55,029 nucleotides of DNA from a virus. This document shows, piece after piece, positions 4,805-24,671 of the stretch. The notes beneath the pieces are model-generated. The model had not been told where the DNA came from. It did no database searches and was given only the letters and a program-made list of their open reading frames with translations. The stretch is from positions 1 to 55,029 of IMG/VR virus record IMGVR_UViG_3300042569_001733; one strand, written 5' to 3'. The position numbers were made by a program, and so were the translations under genes. Positions within the stretch are counted from its first letter, which is position 1; every line of letters starts with the position of its first letter.

Positions 4805-7087
<2,283 letters not shown>

Positions 7088-7100
7088 GGGAGGATAGTAA

Positions 7101-8792
<1,692 letters not shown>

Positions 8793-8800
8793 TCCTTTCT

Positions 8801-8806
8801 TATAAT
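8801..8806 (+). promoter_or_regulatory. Candidate promoter -10 (TATAAT)
   Basis: TATAAT in the 101-bp gap between fibres 2 and 3, about 90 bases before the ATG at 8894. A stem-loop GGGAAC-CTCTCT-GTTCCC (8848-8865) lies in the resulting leader. Confidence 0.35.
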
Positions 8807-8847
8807 ACCTTAAGTCATCTTCTTTCCTAAAGGATAAAATATCTTTC

Positions 8848-8865
8848 GGGAACCTCTCTGTTCCC
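8848..8865 (+). other. Leader stem-loop before fibre 3
   Basis: Perfect 6-bp arms GGGAAC/GTTCCC with a 6-base loop, 28 bases ahead of the fibre 3 start and not followed by T residues. It could stabilise the mRNA or weakly separate the fibre 2 and fibre 3 transcripts. Confidence 0.35.
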
Positions 8866-8878
8866 AACACTCGAGTGA

Positions 8879-11260
<2,382 letters not shown>

Positions 11261-11273
11261 CCCCTTCTTAAAG

Positions 11274-11313
11274 GAAACTGCCCGTTCTTCTCCAGAAGAG
11301 CGGGCAGTTTTTT
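11274..11313 (+). terminator. Rho-independent terminator after fibre 3
   Basis: AACTGCCCGTTCTTCT pairs with AGAAGAGCGGGCAGTT (one T-G wobble) around a 2-base loop and runs into a T-tract. It is a clear intrinsic terminator 14 bases after the fibre 3 stop. Confidence 0.9.
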
Positions 11314-11343
11314 ATGCTCGTTTTTAAGATAAACATCGAGATT

Positions 11344-11359
11344 TATAGTATAGTATACC
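11344..11359 (+). promoter_or_regulatory. Candidate promoter for fibre 4 and downstream
   Basis: Overlapping TATAGT-TATAGT-TATACC hexamers (11344-11349, 11349-11354, 11354-11359) lie between the terminator and the ATG at 11388. A new transcript is needed after the terminator, which supports a promoter here. No clear -35 box. Confidence 0.45.
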
Positions 11360-11378
11360 CATACCTTTGCAGCAGTGA

Positions 11379-14404
<3,026 letters not shown>

Positions 14405-14408
<4 letters not shown>

Positions 14409-15580
14409 CAACTAATTATAAGATATTAGGACAGACTGCTCCTGCTGTAGGCGGTGAATTACTTAACTACACAGTTCCCGCTGCTACCTCTACATTAGTG
14501 CGCTCAATTAACGTAACTAATACCTCTGCAACTGCAGATACTTACAGTCTTGCTATTGCACCAAAAAACTTGTTTGTAGGAATTGTTGATTATTCAACCA
14601 CAGCAACATACTCTACCGATGGTATTACTTGGACATCAACAACTTTGCCAGTCGCGTCTACTTCTGTATGGCGCGTTTCGTATGGAAATGGTGTATTTGT
14701 TGCAATCCAGCCTGATTCAACAACAGCATTCTATTCTACTAATGGAATATCTTGGAGTACAACAACCATGATATCAGATGGACAGTATGGAAATTGGCGT
14801 GGTTTAGCTTTTGGTAACGGTACTTTTGTTGCTACTGCTCAAAACACATCAGTTTCAGCTACTTCTACTAATGGTATTACTTGGACTCAAAGAAGTATGC
14901 CATCAAGTAAAAATTGGACTGCAGCGGTCTATGGAAACAATACGTTTGTTGTATTAACATCATTTTCTACTACAGCCGCCTCGTCTACAGACGGCATTAC
15001 TTGGACTGAAATAACTATGCCAGTGTCTGTTAATTTTAAAAACGTAGTTTTTGGTAAAGGTATATTTGTTGCAGTAGCAGGTGAATCAACCACATCCGTA
15101 TCTTCAACAGATGGAATTACTTGGACTGTAAGAACTCTGCCGTCTGCACCTGATTGGGTTGGGTTGGCTTATGGAAATGGTGTATTTGTTGCAACAGGAG
15201 CTTATTTTGGTTCTTCTAACGCATCGATATATTCTACTGATGGAATAACTTGGACAGCAACAACTATGCCAAATACAGCCGCTTGGGAATCGGTAGCGTA
15301 TGGAAGTAATGTTTTCGTTGCAGTGGGGTTTGGCTATGGGGGAGGTAAAGCAAGCTCAACTAACGGAATTACTTGGACTATCAGAACAATTCCAGAAATA
15401 AAAAGAATAGGATATAGCAATACAGAATCATCTAACTTTATTGCTTATAACAATTCTATTCCTGGAAATTCAACGGTAACTATAAAAGCAGGATACACGT
15501 TGCCAGCATCTGGCGGTATCAGAGTAACATCTACTAACGGTACCTCTACATTTTCAACATTCGGAGCGGAGATTTCATAA
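14405..15580 (+). CDS. Propeller-bearing fibre/tip protein B (paralog of A)
   Basis: 391 residues, overlapping A by ATGA. Same architecture: N-terminal NYKILGQ...TLVRSINVTN, seven repeats with ST(D/N)GITWT and YGNGVFVA, and a C-terminal segment ending FSTFGAEIS. Repeat faces differ markedly from A (fewer charged residues, more Thr/Ser), consistent with two tip specificities after duplication. Likely role: alternative or heteromeric adhesin at the tail fibre tip. Confidence 0.75.
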
Positions 15581-16346: not shown

Positions 16347-17171
16347 ATGACTACACATGACGAAAAGAAATTCTTTTTTATGGCAGGGCTTCCACGCTCA
16401 GGAGGCACGCTGCTATCTTCTATTCTTAATCAAAATCCAGATATATACGTCTCACCGCAGTCGACTCTTCCTAACACCCTAGGCGCCGCGTACAACCAGT
16501 ATCAAAGTAAAGAGAATAAAGACGCTAATCAATTTGATCATATCTACGCTGTTATGGAAACAATCATTCCAATATTCTACAGTGTCCGCCCGGAGAAGTA
16601 CATCGTCGATAAGAACTTCTCCTGGCTAGACGGGCACCCGTACGTAATTCTAGAAAACCACCTTAAAAATGATATTAGGGTTATATGTCCAGTGCGTGAT
16701 GTTTTAGGTATACTTGCGTCATGGAATAGACTATGTGAAAATGACCCTAATAACGAATACGACAAGACTATATATAAAAAATATAGAGACAAAAGCTTGA
16801 TGGCTGACAAAAGAGCCCGTTACTTCATGGAGCTTGGTGACGAAGAAAATGGAATTCTAAAGGGAATTGAAAATCTTAAACGAGTGCTATATCCTGAGTT
16901 CAAGGATAATATTCTACTAGTAGACTATGACGACCTTACTAAGGACACGGAAAGTACTATAGGCAAGGTGTACGATTTCCTTGAGATTCCTAACTACACC
17001 CATGCGTATAAGTCACTATCTACACCTCATAAGTATGAAGATACTTGGGGAGTTAAGGATCACCATAAGGTGAAGTCGACTATCAAGCGTGAAGAATACG
17101 ACTACAGTAAGATATTTTCGCCTGCAACAATTAAGCAATACTCGGGACTAGAGTTTTGGAGAAACACATGA
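16347..17171 (+). CDS. Sulfotransferase (PAPS-dependent)
   Basis: 274 residues from ATG 16347; an earlier in-frame GTG (16302) lies inside the terminator and is rejected. FMAGLPRSGGTLLSSIL (GLPRSGGT at residues 14-21) is the 5'-phosphosulfate-binding loop of sulfotransferases. ICPVRDVLGILASW fits the 3'-phosphate-binding region, and LVDYDDLTKDTESTIGKVYDFLEI is typical of the C-terminal half. It would move sulfate from PAPS to a sugar or tyrosine hydroxyl. The next gene (ATGA overlap) encodes an APS kinase-like donor-making enzyme, and four glycosyltransferases follow, so a glycan acceptor is likely. No signal peptide, so cytoplasmic. Confidence 0.85.
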   Translation: MTTHDEKKFFFMAGLPRSGGTLLSSILNQNPDIYVSPQSTLPNTLGAAYNQYQSKENKDANQFDHIYAVMETIIPIFYSVRPEKYIVDKNFSWLDGHPYVILENHLKNDIRVICPVRDVLGILASWNRLCENDPNNEYDKTIYKKYRDKSLMADKRARYFMELGDEENGILKGIENLKRVLYPEFKDNILLVDYDDLTKDTESTIGKVYDFLEIPNYTHAYKSLSTPHKYEDTWGVKDHHKVKSTIKREEYDYSKIFSPATIKQYSGLEFWRNT

Positions 17172-17923
17172 TCATTCAAATTATTGGACTACCAGGATCT
17201 GGTAAGACCACGTTAGCTAAAGCTCTTCTAGAGCACACGGATGCCATTCATCTTAATGCAGATGAGGTACGAGCTGATCTTAACAAGGACCTTGGTTTTA
17301 CTCCCGAGGATCGCATCGAGCAAGCTCGTCGTATGGGAGCTCTAGCTCGTTTGTTAGACGCGCAAGGGCGTTTAGTTGTGGTTGATTTTATATGTCCTAC
17401 CTTTGAAACGCGTAAGGTATTTGGTAAGCCAGACTACCTCGTGTGGGTAGACCGTATCGAGGAAGGACGCTTTGCAGACACAAACAAGATTTGGGAAGAC
17501 CCGCTGGAGTACAGTGTTCGCGTTGAGGCAGGGTGCACGGTAGAGGAAGAAGTTCAAATTGTCTTGACTGCAGCTGGTCTACACGACTGGAAAAAGCCAA
17601 CAACCTTAATGCTTGGACGCTATCAACCTTGGCACGAAGGCCATCATGCTCTCTACAATGAAGCCGGTAAACGAACACCGCAGGTTCTACTAGGAGTTCG
17701 CAACACGCAAGGAACAAGCGAGAAGGATCCGCTGTCGTTTGATCAGGTAAATTTTTATATCGACAAGGATCCAGCAATGAAGGACGCGATGGTTGTTCGG
17801 TTCCCCAACATCACTAACATTGTCTACGGGCGTGACGTCGGATACAAGATCGAGGAGGTTGTATTAGATGCTGCTACGCAGGCTATTAGCGCAACTCAAA
17901 AACGTAAAGAGATGGGCATATAA
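17168..17923 (+). CDS. Fused APS kinase-like / nucleotidyltransferase
   Basis: 251 residues from ATG 17168 (GGAG upstream; ATGA overlap with the sulfotransferase). The N-terminal domain has GLPGSGKTT (7-15), LNADEVRADL (29-38) and DLGFTPEDR (41-49), then VVVDFICP. These match the APS kinase pattern of P-loop, DGDNVRxGL, DLGFSxxDR and VxFISP. The C-terminal ~105 residues contain GRYQPWHEGHH (150-160), the HxGH signature of nucleotidyltransferases, and DPLSF like the NPFS/T segment of NMNAT-type enzymes. The domain order equals that of animal PAPS synthetase, but the second domain is far shorter than ATP sulfurylase. Inferred role: PAPS supply for the neighbouring sulfotransferase. Confidence 0.8.
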   Translation: MIIQIIGLPGSGKTTLAKALLEHTDAIHLNADEVRADLNKDLGFTPEDRIEQARRMGALARLLDAQGRLVVVDFICPTFETRKVFGKPDYLVWVDRIEEGRFADTNKIWEDPLEYSVRVEAGCTVEEEVQIVLTAAGLHDWKKPTTLMLGRYQPWHEGHHALYNEAGKRTPQVLLGVRNTQGTSEKDPLSFDQVNFYIDKDPAMKDAMVVRFPNITNIVYGRDVGYKIEEVVLDAATQAISATQKRKEMGI

Positions 17924-18025
17924 ATGAAAGAGTATACACTTGCTGTTGTTGCATCTCTTATAATTGCTGCAATTATGGTCTATTTTGTTGATAAAAAATT
18001 TGGAGGAGAGGATGAAGGTAACTAA
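17924..18025 (+). CDS. 33-residue membrane peptide
   Basis: The ATG follows the previous TAA by one residue's spacing and the frame ends at 18025, overlapping the DUF2061 start (18012). The peptide has one hydrophobic helix (LAVVASLIIAAIMVYFV) and a charged tail (DKKFGGEDEG). Coupled placement between the PAPS enzyme and a second membrane protein suggests a real small gene, perhaps a membrane anchor or transport helper. Too short for family assignment. Confidence 0.55.
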   Translation: MKEYTLAVVASLIIAAIMVYFVDKKFGGEDEGN

Positions 18026-18215
18026 GGCTCGATCCTTTACTAAGTCGCTTAGCTACCGTATCTTTGGAACTTTAAGTTCTTTTGCTGTTGTGTTTGCCAT
18101 TACCGGCGAGGGCACATTGTCAGCCCTTATTGCCTTCTGGGAGACTGTAGTTAAAGTCGGTATCTACTATTGGCATGAAAGAATTTGGAACAAGATCAGC
18201 TGGGGAAGAAAATAG
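18012..18215 (+). CDS. DUF2061 membrane protein
   Basis: 67 residues from ATG 18012, directly after GGAGGAGAGG. The pattern TKSLSYRIFGTL, AITGEGTLSALIAFWETVVK and IYYWHERIW fits the DUF2061 family: two membrane helices with a conserved KxxxYYxHExxW end. Function unknown. It sits between the PAPS enzyme and glycosyltransferases. I recall DUF2061 genes near sulfate-activation genes in some bacteria, but this is memory, not evidence from the window. The stop TAG overlaps the GTG of the next gene. Confidence 0.75.
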   Translation: MKVTKARSFTKSLSYRIFGTLSSFAVVFAITGEGTLSALIAFWETVVKVGIYYWHERIWNKISWGRK

Positions 18216-18883
18216 TGGAACATTACGACGTACTTATAGCAACGCCTGGCGCGATGCTCGAGGCGCAATATGTAAAGAGTCTAGTTGAGACGCTTGCAGA
18301 GTGCGACAAGCGCGGGATTACGTATAAGTGGCTTAATGCCTACGCCTCACTTGTTCATCATGCTCGCGAGCTAACCGCAAGTGGCGGTGAAGGTATGGAA
18401 TTAAACCCAGACCATCGTGGTCCTGTGGGAGATTCTGTAACATATAAAAAGATATTTTGGATTGACTCAGACATCGCTTGGACTCCTGAACAATTTTTTA
18501 AGCTATATGAATCAGAGTATGAAGTAGTTTCCGGGGCCTATATAGTCTCCGATGAGGTTACTACAACAGTTCATGCTTGGGGTAAACCAGGAGGAATCCC
18601 TATCCCAGAAATTATGAAGATGAAAGCGCCTCTTAAGGTTCAAAGCATCGGGTTTGGCTTTGTAACTATGAAATATGGTGTCTTTGAGCGTTTACCGCGC
18701 CCGTGGTTTAAACACTTTGACCAAACAGTTCCAACCGCTAGAGGTAATCAAGTTGTGGACTCTATCGGAGAAGACGTATCGTGGTGCATCAAAGCCTATC
18801 AAGCAGGTATTGAGATTTACTTTGACCCGTCTGTTTTAGTTAATCATATGAAGAAAAGAGCAATTACATGGCCAAAGAAATAA
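18215..18883 (+). CDS. Glycosyltransferase (GT-A fold) 1
   Basis: 222 residues from GTG 18215, chosen over TTG 18185 because GGGGAAG precedes it and TAGTG couples it to the DUF2061 gene. KKIFWIDSDIAWTP carries the DxD metal/nucleotide-sugar motif, and IGEDVSWC near the C-terminus fits the catalytic GEDxxF/W region of family 2-like enzymes. Related in pattern to the next gene. Transfers an unknown sugar; no membrane segment, so it probably acts in the cytoplasm on a soluble acceptor such as a virion protein. Confidence 0.75.
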   Translation: MEHYDVLIATPGAMLEAQYVKSLVETLAECDKRGITYKWLNAYASLVHHARELTASGGEGMELNPDHRGPVGDSVTYKKIFWIDSDIAWTPEQFFKLYESEYEVVSGAYIVSDEVTTTVHAWGKPGGIPIPEIMKMKAPLKVQSIGFGFVTMKYGVFERLPRPWFKHFDQTVPTARGNQVVDSIGEDVSWCIKAYQAGIEIYFDPSVLVNHMKKRAITWPKK

Positions 18884-19581
18884 AAAAGAAGAGTGTCTAT
18901 ATCGCTACACCTATGTATGGAGCTATGTGTAGCGGTTACTTTGCTCGCAGCCTTACGGACCTTGTTATTAACCTTCTACAAAGTGGACACGAGGTCCACT
19001 TTCAAGATGTGTATAACTCAAGCCTTGTTACCGAGGCGCGAAATTTCTTAACAGAAGACTTCCTTCGCAAGGAGTATGACTACCTTCTATTTATTGACGC
19101 CGACCAGGGATTTAATCCACTGGGTGTGATTAAGATGATTGAAGAAGATGAAGACGTTATCTCCGGCGTAGTCCCGCTTAAGTTTCTAAACTGGGATGGT
19201 GTACTTAACGCCTCTCGTCAAGGGAAGATTGATCTATATAACTACACATCTGCCCATAATATTGTGCCTCTTAACGCAGATAACGTAGACCCTTCTCAGA
19301 AAATCGAGGTCGCGTCAGCTGGCACCGGGCTCATGCTTATCAGTCGTACAGTATTTGAAAAAATGATGCCTACAACTGAAGTCTACGGATTTGGCGGAAC
19401 ACCTTGTCTTAACCTTAGCAAAGGCGATGAGATTTATAACTTCTGGTCACTTGAGACTATTGATGGTATTAGGTTTGGAGAAGATGTTAATTTCTGCCGT
19501 AAATGGCGTGAACTTGGTGGAAAGATCTATACGACATTTTGGCCTCAGGCTACGCACGTTGGAACCTACGTCTATAAGTAG
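18868..19581 (+). CDS. Glycosyltransferase (GT-A fold) 2
   Basis: 237 residues; ATG 18868 lies 16 bases inside the previous gene. VYIATPMYGAMCSGYF begins the nucleotide-binding fold, YLLFIDADQGFNP has the DxD motif and FGEDVNFC is the GED catalytic motif. A paralog-like companion of the preceding enzyme. The two may add successive sugars of one oligosaccharide. Confidence 0.78.
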   Translation: MAKEIKKKSVYIATPMYGAMCSGYFARSLTDLVINLLQSGHEVHFQDVYNSSLVTEARNFLTEDFLRKEYDYLLFIDADQGFNPLGVIKMIEEDEDVISGVVPLKFLNWDGVLNASRQGKIDLYNYTSAHNIVPLNADNVDPSQKIEVASAGTGLMLISRTVFEKMMPTTEVYGFGGTPCLNLSKGDEIYNFWSLETIDGIRFGEDVNFCRKWRELGGKIYTTFWPQATHVGTYVYK

Positions 19582-19635
19582 TAGTGTTCTGCATAAATAG
19601 ACACTTTCTAGCGTTATTCTTGATAGGGTAATCAC

Positions 19636-20700
19636 ATGAAAGTTGCCGCATACGCCATCTCGTTAAACGAGGAAAAGCACGCTGCCCGCTGGGCTGAAAC
19701 TACAAAGGACGCGGACTTCCGCCTTGTATGTGACACTGGATCCACAGATAGAACGGTTGAGATCCTACGCGAGCACGGAGTAATAGTTCACGAGATTAGC
19801 GTCAAGCCTTGGCGCTTTGACGTTGCACGCAATACCGCACAGAGTTTACTACCCGACGACATAGACGTATGCTTGTCTTTAGATATGGACGAACTTGTAG
19901 ATGAAAACTTCTTTGAGGAAGTTAAGAAGCAGTGGGTAGACGGAGCTACAAAAGGTTGGTGTGAGTTTGACACCGGACACGTTTGGTGGGGTTGCCGTCT
20001 TCACTCACGACATAAGATGTATTGGAAATATCCAATTCACGAGGTATTTGTTCCTTCGCTTGATACACAAAATGTTAGCTGCCAAATTCACGGAGTTAAG
20101 ATGTATCATAAGCCTGATGACACTAAGTCGCGCGGACAGTATCTACCTATGCTTGTTGCCGCGTCAAAGGAGTTTGGAGAGGATCACCGCATCTGGGTCT
20201 ACCTATGTCGTGAATACTACTTCTATAAGCAGTGGGAACTTGTTATCAGCGCGGCTGAAAAGGTTACAGAGTTTAGCAAGGACTGGTACATCGAGCGTGC
20301 AGCCGTGTGTCGTTGGGCCGCGGAGGCTTCGCGCAACATAGGTAAGAAAGAAGAGGCGCACGTTTGGGCAGACAAGGCAATTGAGATTGATCCTTGCGGA
20401 GAAAATTACTACGAGAAGGTCCGCTGCTACTACGACTCCGGTGACTGGGGCGGAGTCTGGGAGACGTGTAAGCTTGTCGCCGCGTGTGACAAGACGGATC
20501 ACTATCTTTCATCCGAGGCGCTATGGCGTTGGCAACTTGACGACATGCGTGGGCTATCCGCGCACTACCTAGGTGATAGAGATAAGGCTGTACAATATGG
20601 TGAGTTGGCGGTTGCAGGTAGCCCTGACGACGAACGCCTAAAGACAAACCTAAGGTTCTATAAAGCAGGAATCGAGGCACAACTAAATGGAACAGCCTGA
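19636..20700 (+). CDS. Family 2 glycosyltransferase with TPR-like C-terminus
   Basis: 354 residues; AGGG lies about 8 bases before the ATG. The N-terminal GT-2 domain has AAYAISLNEEKHAARW, CDTGSTDRTVEIL and LSLDMDELV (DxD at ~79-81), as in SunS-like enzymes that glycosylate peptides. The C-terminal ~170 residues are helical with TPR-like repeats (EEAHVWADKAIEIDP, KAVQYGELAVAGSPDD), a common partner-binding arrangement in protein O-glycosyltransferases. This supports a protein acceptor. Overlaps the next gene by 14 bases. Confidence 0.8.
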   Translation: MKVAAYAISLNEEKHAARWAETTKDADFRLVCDTGSTDRTVEILREHGVIVHEISVKPWRFDVARNTAQSLLPDDIDVCLSLDMDELVDENFFEEVKKQWVDGATKGWCEFDTGHVWWGCRLHSRHKMYWKYPIHEVFVPSLDTQNVSCQIHGVKMYHKPDDTKSRGQYLPMLVAASKEFGEDHRIWVYLCREYYFYKQWELVISAAEKVTEFSKDWYIERAAVCRWAAEASRNIGKKEEAHVWADKAIEIDPCGENYYEKVRCYYDSGDWGGVWETCKLVAACDKTDHYLSSEALWRWQLDDMRGLSAHYLGDRDKAVQYGELAVAGSPDDERLKTNLRFYKAGIEAQLNGTA

Positions 20701-21550
20701 TGTATTTGTTGCAGTTCTTGTAAAGCAAAAAGAAGCTGTATTACCTCTATTTCTTGAATCACTTGAGGCTTGGGATTACCCTAAGGAAAAATTATTTCTC
20801 TACATCCGCACGAACAACAACACCGACAATACCGTGCAGATCTTAGACGACTGGATAGAGAAGAACGTTCATCTTTATAAAGGCTGCGTGTACGATAAGC
20901 AAAATGTCGGCGAGGCGGTAGAGCGTTTTAAGCAGCACGAGTGGAACGGCGAACGATTTAGGGTCCTTGCAAAAATTCGTCAACAAAGTTTTAACGAGTG
21001 CCTTGATACTGACTGCAAATACTACTTTGTGGTTGATGTTGATAACTTTATATTCCCGGAGACGCTCAACGAGCTTATTAAGTTAGACCTGCCTATCGTA
21101 GCTCCGTTTATTCGCTACGCGGTTGCGTTTGGCGATAATGTAGACGACGAGGAAACTGCAAAGGAACGCGAAGGACACCTTGGACAGTACTACGCTAACT
21201 ACCATCACATCGTAGACGACTACGGCTCAATCGTCGCAAACGACGCCTACTACCAGGTGCTAGAGCAAAAGGTTAAGGGACTTATCGAGTGCATGTGCGT
21301 TCACTGCACGTATCTTATTAAGCGCGAACATCTTTCAGAGCTTTCGTATTTAGAGGATTCTGATCGCTGGGAGTACATGGTGTTCTCAAACTCCGCGCGC
21401 GATAAAAATATTAAACAGTATCTAGATAACAGAACTATCTACGGTATCCTTACGCTGTCAGAAAACGCAGGCGCATCGCGCTGGTGGTACGAGTATCTAA
21501 AGGATAAAGAAGATAGAGCTGTGGCGTATAAAGATCGCTGGCTACAGTAG
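20687..21550 (+). CDS. Collagen galactosyltransferase-like (GT25-like) enzyme
   Basis: 287 residues. LVKQKEAVLPLFLESLEAWDYPKEKL, TNNNTDNT (42-49), YYFVVDVDN (DVD at 117-119), LPIVAPF (135-141) and a downstream VHCTYLIKREHL follow the order and spacing of the collagen Hyl-galactosyltransferase domain. In animals that domain reads roughly LxxLDYPxxR, TDHNxDNT, FxDTDN, LPVVAP and VHSTFL. Family placement is from memory and needs a profile search; a generic GT-2/Anp1-like enzyme is the alternative. Last gene of the cassette; its end overlaps the convergent WhiB gene by 9 bases. Confidence 0.7.
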   Translation: MEQPDVFVAVLVKQKEAVLPLFLESLEAWDYPKEKLFLYIRTNNNTDNTVQILDDWIEKNVHLYKGCVYDKQNVGEAVERFKQHEWNGERFRVLAKIRQQSFNECLDTDCKYYFVVDVDNFIFPETLNELIKLDLPIVAPFIRYAVAFGDNVDDEETAKEREGHLGQYYANYHHIVDDYGSIVANDAYYQVLEQKVKGLIECMCVHCTYLIKREHLSELSYLEDSDRWEYMVFSNSARDKNIKQYLDNRTIYGILTLSENAGASRWWYEYLKDKEDRAVAYKDRWLQ

Positions 21551-22060
21551 CGGTTTTTCCTTCTTAGGCTTCTTTTTCTTTTCTTTATCGCGCTCGCTCT
21601 TTGCTAGCTTCTCTTCACGTTGAATATGATACGCGTCAACCGCGTTTGCGCTTGTGCGTGAGCGCCAGGTAAAGTCACAAGCCTCGCATTGAACAAGACG
21701 CATGGTTGCCCAACGTCCTCCACCTGGAACATCTACTACCAATGTCTTAAGTTTATTTGGTCGTGCGTTGCAGTAAGGGCACTGTGGAAAACGTTGTCTA
21801 CGAGATTCCTGTCCGTTCCAGGATACGGAAAGTGTACGACGAATTTCTCCTTCGTCTTTTCCTCCCCAGATTCCCCAGATCTGCTTGTGCTCTAACGCCC
21901 ACTTCAAACATTCTTTTCGTACAGGACACGAGAAGCAAAGATTCTTTGCCTGGTATTTTTCTGCAGGCTCGGATGAAAAGAAGAAATCTCTGAAATCCTC
22001 GTTTACCTGTTGTCCGCATGCTGAGTCTTTTTGCCAACTAAGATCTAGTGATCCGCTCAT
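21542..22060 (-). CDS. WhiB-family regulator with C-terminal zinc ribbon
   Basis: 172 residues from ATG 22060 (ATGA overlap with the upstream stop); an upstream in-frame GTG at 22081 is less likely. WhiB cysteines are C15, C42, C45 and C51 (Cx26Cx2Cx5C), followed by GIWGG at 63-67; these bind a 4Fe-4S cluster and contact the main sigma factor. Unusually, the C-terminus has CPYC and CEAC pairs (zinc-ribbon-like) and a very Lys-rich tail. Likely a phage transcription regulator, and the main sign of an actinobacterial host. Confidence 0.9.
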   Translation of the reverse strand: MSGSLDLSWQKDSACGQQVNEDFRDFFFSSEPAEKYQAKNLCFSCPVRKECLKWALEHKQIWGIWGGKDEGEIRRTLSVSWNGQESRRQRFPQCPYCNARPNKLKTLVVDVPGGGRWATMRLVQCEACDFTWRSRTSANAVDAYHIQREEKLAKSERDKEKKKKPKKEKPLL

Positions 22061-22401
22061 TCTGCGATTACCTCGACCCACGTAATAGGAGTCAAGCCAT
22101 CTACGCTATCGCCTTCGCGTGTTTCACCGTCTTCATCGCACGCGGTTAATTCATTATCGCCGTCTACTTCTCCCGCGTAACCGTAGTTAATCAACGCGGA
22201 GTCAAGATACTTAAATCCGTTGCCTAATGACACGGATATACCATCGCGTTGTAGTGCAGACGCGAGTGCGCGACGAATAAGCTCGTTCTCTAGATCTATA
22301 TGATCCTCTGTGAAGAAGGTAACCGAATGAGCGTGTAAAGGCTCGTAGCCTTCACCCGTCCATTCCTTCCACAAAAGCTCACCTATACGTGAGTCTTTCA
22401 C
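22057..22401 (-). CDS. Hypothetical acidic protein
   Basis: 114 residues from GTG 22401 with GGGGA upstream. No family recognised. Contains an α/β-looking centre (LENELIRRALASALQRDGISVSLGNGF) and an acidic stretch (ACDEDGETREGDSVDG). Coupled to the WhiB gene by ATGA, so probably co-expressed with it. An imperfect inverted repeat (TTCCCCTTAGCG / CGTTAAGGGAA, 22404-22433) just upstream may be its operator. Confidence 0.6.
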   Translation of the reverse strand: MKDSRIGELLWKEWTGEGYEPLHAHSVTFFTEDHIDLENELIRRALASALQRDGISVSLGNGFKYLDSALINYGYAGEVDGDNELTACDEDGETREGDSVDGLTPITWVEVIAE

Positions 22402-23109: not shown

Positions 23110-23409
23110 CTACAGCTCGTCGGGCGTAGGCTCCTCGTGTACGGGTTCTTCCTCTAGCTCGTCAATCTCATCTTCCCCATCTATCTCAACAGAAGAGATG
23201 TAAATTCCTACTACTGTTAGTCTTCCGCAGACGTAGCAATCCGACACCGCGCCTGGAGATAATTCAATCGGAACCGTAACGCTTATCAGACGAGTAATGA
23301 TATTACCGTTGATATCTACACTATCAGCTTCCCATAGACTGTTTTCGTCTATCCAGCATCTTTCACAGATCGGCACGAGACTGTCATCGTACGTGCGGAT
23401 ATGCTTCAT
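23110..23409 (-). CDS. Small acidic zinc-ribbon-like protein
   Basis: 99 residues, ATGA overlap with the methyltransferase stop. CERC (residues 15-18) and CYVC (~58-61) are spaced like a zinc ribbon. The C-terminus is a long acidic tail (EIDGEDEIDELEEEP). Function unknown; coupling to the methyltransferase may mean a shared DNA-related role. Confidence 0.6.
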   Translation of the reverse strand: MKHIRTYDDSLVPICERCWIDENSLWEADSVDINGNIITRLISVTVPIELSPGAVSDCYVCGRLTVVGIYISSVEIDGEDEIDELEEEPVHEEPTPDEL

Positions 23410-24671
23410 TCGCTAATAGTCTCCATAGGGCTACTGTACCACTTTTTCTTAGCGTAGTGTCTGGAGAATCCCTTATCCGCGTCGATAAGATATTCCCGAT
23501 CTCCGATTAACTCTGCGTCTGGCCCTTGTGGATTACCGTCAAGTGAATCCTTGATAGCCTTACCAATCCAGTTTGCAGCCTGCACAGGAACAGCCTTGCC
23601 CCATACAGCCGCAAGGTGTGAGTAGTCACGTGCGCTTTCAATATTCCAATCATCAGGAAGACCTTGCATGCGAGCAGATTCTCTGTGCGTAATAAGTCGT
23701 GGCTGCGTCGGGTGAACAACGTGATCTAGCGCAGAGCCTGTTAACACGTTACACCAGTGATCTTCCTTCCAGCGATATGGCTGAGAAAATCCAAGCTTAA
23801 AATCTTTACGAATAACGCGAGGAGAAATGTCGATCCATTTCTGAGGGAACTTACCGTCGTTTAAGTCTACCGCTTTTTTAAGTGCGCCACCTGTATCGCC
23901 GTTCCCTTCCCAGCCATCATTTCCGATGATGCTAAAGATCTCTTCAATACGTTGGGCGTGAATATTTGATTTACCGATATGTCCGTCAACCATACCGTTT
24001 TTTGTGCGCAGATGCTTAACATACTTTGACGGAGATGGCGCGGTGTACTTTTGCTTGTTCCACGTCTGAGGCATCTCCGCAAGATCACCGATGATGTCCA
24101 TAATACGTGGAAGTTGTTTCGGTTCGGTGATTGGTGTTGAAAACTTAAGACCAGATTCAACTGCTACCCAGAAGTAGCGCGGGCGATATGAAAATCCGCC
24201 AACCTGTAGGTTGTTTTCCTTAACATGGTACAGATCATATTTTTTACCGGAGACTTGCTCAACCATGTCGCGATACTTAACCATTACGTCGCGTCCCTGT
24301 GTGTATGCCTGTTGAACGCACTCAAAAACAATAGCGCGTGGTTTTACCCGTCCTGCGTATTTCATAAAGGCTACGGTGTGCTCGTGCGCCTTAGAGTCAG
24401 GTCCACGATTAGCAGGGCCAGACCATACAGACCAACCAGAGCAAGGAGGGCAACCCATAACTACATCTGCCTTTTGTACTCGCCATTCATTAGGATCATC
24501 TGAAAACTCTGCAGTCCAATCATCTCCAAGAAGATGACGGTTGTTTTCTGCAACGACGTTTCCAAAGTTTAACGTTCCGGTGCGTTGAATCATCTTCATG
24601 TCATTCTGGACAAAACCAAGACTCATGAACGCGGCAAGCCCATTGCAGTCGATAAATGTATGTTGTGACAA
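23406..24671 (-). CDS. DNA cytosine-5 methyltransferase
   Basis: 421 residues from TTG 24671 with GAAAGG 8 bases upstream. C5-methyltransferase motifs: FIDCNGLAAFMSLGF (I-like), VVMGCPPCSGWS (IV, nucleophile Cys after Pro), IVFECVQ (VI), FSYRPRYFWVAV (VIII), ESARMQGLPDDW (IX) and VWGKAVPVQAANWI (X). Motif VI has FEC in place of ENV, and the region between VIII and IX is the probable target-recognition segment. Probably protects phage DNA against host restriction, since no cognate nuclease gene is adjacent. Confidence 0.9.
   Translation of the reverse strand: MSQHTFIDCNGLAAFMSLGFVQNDMKMIQRTGTLNFGNVVAENNRHLLGDDWTAEFSDDPNEWRVQKADVVMGCPPCSGWSVWSGPANRGPDSKAHEHTVAFMKYAGRVKPRAIVFECVQQAYTQGRDVMVKYRDMVEQVSGKKYDLYHVKENNLQVGGFSYRPRYFWVAVESGLKFSTPITEPKQLPRIMDIIGDLAEMPQTWNKQKYTAPSPSKYVKHLRTKNGMVDGHIGKSNIHAQRIEEIFSIIGNDGWEGNGDTGGALKKAVDLNDGKFPQKWIDISPRVIRKDFKLGFSQPYRWKEDHWCNVLTGSALDHVVHPTQPRLITHRESARMQGLPDDWNIESARDYSHLAAVWGKAVPVQAANWIGKAIKDSLDGNPQGPDAELIGDREYLIDADKGFSRHYAKKKWYSSPMETISE

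Follow-up and report, generated by a model that had tools for sequence, protein, structure and literature searches.

The window analysed here, a virus contig of 55,029 bases, encodes a sulfotransferase and, in an overlapping gene, a fusion of a kinase with a nucleotidyltransferase (NT). These two genes probably form a self-contained sulfation unit, a reading to which we assign a probability of roughly two in three. In the proposed scheme, the NT half of the fusion would act as an ATP sulfurylase, joining the AMP of ATP to sulfate to form APS and release pyrophosphate, the N-terminal half would phosphorylate APS at its 3' position to give PAPS (APS kinase), and the sulfotransferase would pass the sulfuryl group of PAPS to an acceptor. 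The acceptor is perhaps the collagen-like tail fibre of the phage, a glycan assembled by the downstream glycosyltransferases or the host surface. A PAPS supply of its own would permit sulfation in streamlined hosts that lack sulfate activation. A broader proposal, which we favour with slightly less confidence, is that the NT represents a third ATP sulfurylase class (~110–130 aa, HIGH superfamily), that it provides the missing APS/sulfate step of SAR11 sulfite oxidation, and that phages have it fused to a lid-reduced APS kinase feeding interchangeable sulfotransferases.

The gene pair is real. The sulfotransferase frame starts with the ATG at 16347 and ends with the TGA at 17169-17171; the ATG of the fusion, at 17168, lies inside this stop (an ATGA overlap), and the fusion ends at 17923. 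The same overlap is present in the close relatives L167-L169, so the pair is not a chance feature. The coordinates and the overlap given in the original prediction proved correct when checked on the sequence, and the motifs NADEVRADL, LGFTPEDR and HxGH that it had named in the fusion are all present and conserved. The first gene contains the following features:

16347-17171, + strand: sulfotransferase of 274 aa, Sulfotransfer_3/Sulfotransfer_1 type, phrog_27463 (Pfam, PHROG and homologues)
16386-16409, + strand: loop GLPRSGGT, residues 14-21, whose G, R, G and T are conserved across an alignment of 17 phage homologues
16695-16721, + strand: R117...S125 (RDVLGILAS), both named residues being invariant across the same 17 homologues

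The first protein scores above cut-off against both PF13469 (51.4 bits, 2.1e-13; cut-off 27) and PF00685 (49.9 bits, 3.6e-13; cut-off 22), in agreement with the earlier sulfotransferase call, and it has homologues in cyanophages and marine viruses. We take GLPRSGGT to be the PAPS 5'-phosphosulfate-binding loop and R117...S125 to be the 3'-phosphate-binding motif, roles that come from knowledge of the family. By score and motifs the protein is a putative PAPS-dependent sulfotransferase family member, with sulfuryl transfer as its predicted activity. Both window proteins are full-length members of PHROG families, the sulfotransferase of phrog_27463 (6e-65; function not assigned) and the fusion of phrog_10255 (6e-68; 'kinase'), and neither family has a recorded role in sulfate activation. 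The literature searched yielded no description of a PAPS pathway in phages, which is weak evidence given its incomplete coverage. When 24 kb of the window was compared with cultured phages by megablast, nothing matched, and models of defence systems gave weak P-loop matches only.

The N-terminal part of the fusion closely resembles an APS kinase with a reduced lid:

17168-17923, + strand: kinase–NT fusion of 251 aa, phrog_10255, candidate minimal PAPS synthase
17168-17575, + strand: APS-kinase-like domain with a shortened lid, spanning roughly residues 1-136 (PF01583, TIGR00455 and AF2 model)
17186-17212, + strand: P-loop GLPGSGKTT, residues 7-15, with G7, G10, G12 and K13 invariant
17255-17314, + strand: APS-site motifs NADEVR and LGFTPEDR, with D32, R35, F44 and R49 invariant in 24 sequences
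17465-17503, + strand: GRFADTNKIWEDP, residues 100-112, counterpart of the FTGIDxxYExP segment of APS kinases, past the shortened lid (F...(W/Y)ExP spacing judged by eye)

The match to PF01583 (APS_kinase; 62.1 bits, 8e-17, cut-off 21.1) covers residues 2-83, corresponding to profile positions 4-90 of 152, and the match to TIGR00455 (apsK; 63 bits, 2.8e-17) falls under the curated cut-off of 138.7. An AlphaFold (AF2) model of the kinase domain, built on an alignment of 32 relatives from loci on viral and genome contigs, has a mean pLDDT of 92. Its top 50 Foldseek matches in the PDB are without exception APS kinases or PAPS synthetases, led by the APS kinase of human PAPSS1 with bound APS (2ofw, E 6e-10). 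The original prediction had named a polynucleotide or nucleoside kinase structure as the outcome that would count against it; when the structure was checked, no such enzyme appeared among these 50 matches, and this reading was rejected.

The APS-site residues of the fusion can be placed on a known enzyme. In Mycobacterium tuberculosis CysC, APS is held by Asp480, Phe492 and Arg497 (PMC4373884), which correspond to D32, F44 and R49 of the fusion via an ungapped alignment to PAPSS1. NADEVRADL begins at residue 30, and LGFTPEDR spans residues 42-49. The counterpart of CysC Phe576, an aromatic position, is F102, assigned by motif spacing; in the surrounding segment of residues 100-112, T105 and P112 are invariant and the motif reads F102...W-E-x-P. 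SAR11 kinases carry a 27-residue insert just ahead of the equivalent segment. With the lid of the fusion shortened, the catalytic lid residue Lys562 and the adenine-stacking Arg559 of CysC have no clear equivalents in the alignment. The phage kinase thus shares the P-loop and the APS-site Asp, Phe and Arg with CysC and CysN-CysC (PMC4373884) but differs from them in that its lid region is largely missing and in its TIGR00455 score (63 versus 138.7 bits). On the strength of the model, the N-terminal domain is APS-kinase-like, with APS kinase as its predicted activity.

The C-terminal part of the fusion is a small domain with motifs of the HIGH superfamily:

17582-17920, + strand: minimal HxGH NT domain, residues 139-251, candidate ATP sulfurylase (AF2 model; a separate gene in SAR11)
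17615-17644, + strand: GRYQPWHEGH, predicted active-site motif, residues 150-159, with Q153, P154, H156, G158 and H159 invariant
17825-17845, + strand: YGRDVGY, residues 220-226, similar to the ATP sulfurylase GRD loop, invariant in phage and rhizobial members
17885-17905, + strand: ISATQKR, residues 240-246, the SxTxxR motif of the superfamily, with I240, A242, T243 and R246 invariant

The Pfam match of this region to CTP_transf_like is weak (18.3 bits, below the cut-off of 21). Modelled alone with AF2, the domain adopts a HIGH-superfamily fold (pLDDT 86) that resembles phosphopantetheine adenylyltransferases (PPAT), cytidylyltransferases and NMNAT, and no canonical ATP sulfurylase is found among its top 50 fold matches. 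Neither the window fusion nor the SAR11 NT matches PF01747 (Sat), and a profile comparison of the NT with Sat (hhalign) is not significant. Of the Sat-type motifs, QPWHxGH and YGRDVGY are present, QxRN is absent, and the GRD is replaced by GRG in the SAR11 proteins, where the counterpart of YGRDVGY reads GRGVGY. The likeness of YGRDVGY to the GRD loop, including its location, was judged by eye; in Allochromatium vinosum Sat this loop binds APS (PMC3779200). The NT belongs to neither the Sat nor the CysD family; the original prediction had noted neither this nor the chromosomal occurrence of the pathway in SAR11. The modelled fold does not by itself discriminate the substrate of the NT, so context must decide.

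The overall layout recalls the animal-type PAPS synthases PAPSS1/2, in which an APS kinase is followed by a nucleotidyltransferase in one chain, and the APS-kinase fold and motifs are shared. Unlike PAPSS1/2, the phage fusion totals 251 aa, has a shortened lid and ends in a domain of ~110 residues that lies outside the ATP-sulfurylase family.

The fusion is encoded at no fewer than 590 viral places, and linkage was counted in the best 80 of these at least 590 loci. A sulfotransferase lies near the fusion in 42 of the 80, drawn from four sequence clusters (one Sulfotransfer_3-like, two Sulfotransfer_2-like and one weakly Sulfotransfer_1), and about half of the fusion loci have none on the stretch examined. 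Most of the linked sulfotransferases are no more than 800 bases away from the fusion, and whether they lie upstream or downstream depends on the cluster. Among loci anchored on one sulfotransferase family instead, 35 of 38 carry the fusion; a relative, L170, has the sulfotransferase with no fusion nearby. The association extends to the cultured Stenotrophomonas phage DLP_6, in which the fusion occurs together with an annotated sulfotransferase, and to Rhizobium sp. BK376, where Sulfotransfer_2, APS_kinase and NT domains occupy a single 555-aa frame (L087:7128-8795).

As a control, 44 related phage records were collected with an endolysin anchor, the downstream glycosyltransferase having yielded 6 loci only. 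Pfam models were run on the whole records in place of HMMs made from fusion-linked sulfotransferases, which are biased toward the fusion. A sulfotransferase was detected in 8 of the 22 records with the fusion (3 of the 8 below cut-off) and in 0 of the 22 without it (p=0.004, a value inflated by kinship among the phages, as are those below by kinship among SAR11 genomes). These at least 590 places suggest a widespread self-supplied sulfation pathway with exchangeable sulfotransferases, and phages may commonly sulfate fibres, glycans or the surface of the host.

The fusion is not always tied to sulfation, as shown by some cultured members of the Casjensviridae that carry it with no detected sulfotransferase: the three that were tested have no PF03567 or PF13469 match, and a search of Casjensviridae phage Bhz60 for sulfotransferase-like loops gave none that looked real. 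In Bhz60, a NADAR-domain gene (L006:7553-7996) stands directly before the fusion. A gene of the same length occupies this place in AhaSv and 'Clavibacter phage 33', in which no PF03567 or PF13469 sulfotransferase was detected. The latter (L003, OR548257.1) is placed taxonomically among phages of Xanthomonas and Stenotrophomonas (Casjensviridae, Salvovirus), which is odd for a label naming a Gram-positive host. The original prediction of a two-gene PAPS supply and use is strongly supported, short of proof, by fold, linkage, the triple fusion and SAR11 context. The sulfated glycan that it gave as the likely product is one candidate product among several.

Other modification genes also occur around the fusion. 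In the same 80 loci (L007-L086), 2OG-Fe(II) oxygenases or Asp/Asn hydroxylase-like proteins are found near it in 37 and tryptophan-halogenase-like proteins in 15, as if several protein or glycan modifications travelled together.

The NADAR gene would suit an NAD-related chemistry, and one alternative is that the fusion is a NadR-like NAD salvage enzyme, in which the kinase would convert nicotinamide riboside to NMN and the NT would convert NMN to NAD, perhaps countering an NAD-depleting defence, with the sulfotransferase as unrelated cargo. The closest characterised sequence relatives of the NT are indeed NMN adenylyltransferases (nearest solved sequences 2qjt, 1e-8, and 1f9a, 3e-6), and the NT shares GRxQPxHxGH and SxTxxR with NadM and the archaeal NMN adenylyltransferase. 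It differs from these enzymes in falling far below the equivalog cut-offs and in having sulfur genes as genomic partners. Against TIGR01527 (NMNAT equivalog; cut-off 181.2), the window protein scores 16.4 bits and the SAR11 NT 24.8. The kinase fold and motifs are those of an APS kinase, several sulfotransferase families lie near the fusion, one natural triple fusion exists, and the SAR11 NT is linked to aprMBA rather than to NAD genes. We consider NAD salvage unlikely.

The activation of sulfate is central to the sulfur cycle, and to our knowledge just two families of ATP sulfurylase are commonly accepted. SAR11 bacteria are among the most abundant in the sea. In these and related marine Alphaproteobacteria, the kinase and the NT are separate, adjacent chromosomal genes. 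In one SAR11 subgroup they lie beside aprA, aprB and aprM, and in other groups CysQ is found near them (289 bits versus a cut-off of 228.8).

Co-occurrence was assessed in 147 Pelagibacterales genomes. The NT is present in 110 and aprA in 108, with both in 101 and neither in 30 (p=8e-17, uncorrected for relatedness). Sat (PF01747) is found in 6 of the 147. CysD is found in 9, none of which has the NT or aprA (p=2e-6 for exclusion of CysD and NT, inflated by relatedness). The SAR11-type kinase is present in 100 genomes, 99 of which also have the NT; 11 genomes have the NT without this kinase, and 9 of these have aprA. In six genomes lacking the kinase, the NT directly precedes aprM-aprB-aprA (G060/L299:3710-4090; L307-L311). 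Where aprA is present without Sat, the NT accompanies it in 96 of 103 genomes, which names one small protein as the candidate for these sampled Pelagibacterales; if it works as proposed, it would be a new ATP sulfurylase family and close a gap already noted in the metabolism of SAR11.

This gap has been described in the literature: P. ubique has aprBA, cysC and cysQ but not sat or cysDN (PMC5069961), and ATP sulfurylase is absent from most SAR11 (PMC10356861). The gene order in Allochromatium vinosum is sat-aprMBA (PMC3779200). Placed directly before aprM-aprB-aprA, the SAR11 NT takes the position of sat in that operon, and the phage members share a GRD-like loop with A. vinosum Sat, from which the SAR11 NT differs in its size (124-131 aa), in not matching PF01747 and in the lack of a significant profile match. 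Since the NT tracks APS reductase, excludes CysD and occupies the operon place of sat, it is a natural ATP sulfurylase candidate. From these gene patterns, the SAR11 NT may supply the step reported missing in most SAR11. The simplest single account of the contexts in phages, rhizobia and SAR11 would have the NT interconvert ATP plus sulfate with APS plus pyrophosphate, the kinase produce PAPS and the sulfotransferase consume it.

Two observations concern individual NT genes. A second, divergent copy at L300:4827-5186 (G155) sits amid sugar epimerase-like genes, and the C-terminal half of this paralogue has a partial, sub-cut-off match to PF01747 (6.6e-4). The open frame of 1796 aa that surrounds one NT (G126) is due to a masked stretch read as open and was discarded as a fusion.

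The SAR11 pattern also bears on an alternative in which the kinase is a true APS kinase supplied with APS by the host, and the NT serves the glycosyltransferases close by, activating for them a sugar phosphate, a polyol phosphate or some other acceptor. Glycerol-3-phosphate and heptose-phosphate nucleotidyltransferases rank high in the fold search, and four putative glycosyltransferases follow the fusion in the window. Such a role sits poorly with an NT that follows aprA genome-wide in SAR11 and that, where the kinase is missing, stands immediately ahead of aprMBA with no sugar genes alongside, and with a YGRDVGY loop that does not vary among the phage members and is similar to the GRD loop of Sat. 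This alternative appears about as improbable as NAD salvage. Least probable of all is that the SAR11 NT and the phage fusion mainly consume APS made by AprBA or the host, giving sulfate and ATP, or PAPS for disposal, with the phage copy serving sulfur metabolism in general and the adjacent sulfotransferases incidental: sequence leaves the direction undefined, the SAR11 context is sulfite oxidation and some phages have the fusion with no detected sulfotransferase, but for phages and rhizobia a use of PAPS is indicated by the triple fusion and by the excess of sulfotransferases in records with the fusion (8/22 versus 0/22).

Under the preferred reading, in which the fusion would supply PAPS to the sulfotransferase, the remaining genes of the window include possible sources and targets of a sulfated product:

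4826-13181, + strand: collagen-like tail-fibre genes upstream of the pair, possible sulfation targets (PHROG tail fibre, 4 of 4 genes)
17964-18215, + strand: DUF2061 small membrane protein (PF09834, 8.7e-16)
18185-21550, + strand: four downstream genes, namely two phrog_1574, a phrog_13126 beta-1,4-glycosyltransferase with TPR and an Anp1/GT2-like gene

PF01391 (collagen-like) is matched in 8894-11260 and 11388-13181, and a tail tape-measure gene is also present on the contig. In other phages, hydroxylase-like and oxygenase genes cluster near the fusion, which is of interest for a collagen-like fibre as possible acceptor. Next to the fibre genes, at 13185-15580, are two adjacent proteins of ~400 aa with repeated units and no Pfam match. 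The original prediction counted four downstream glycosyltransferases, two of which have reasonable family support: 19636-20700 matches phrog_13126 beta-1,4-glycosyltransferase and 20687-21550 matches Anp1 just above the cut-off, making both probable glycosyltransferases from sequence. The other two, 18185-18883 and 18868-19581, are both phrog_1574 (function not assigned), and their glycosyltransferase matches are weak.

The DUF2061 gene, absent from the earlier description, lies between the fusion and the downstream genes. A DUF2061 protein accompanies the fusion in 72 of the 80 loci (the best 80 of at least 590), mostly just downstream. The phage bearing the gene pair is from freshwater. On the - strand, 21542-22081 encodes a WhiB-like regulator and 23406-24671 a C5 cytosine DNA methyltransferase, and the WhiB gene suggests an actinobacterial host.
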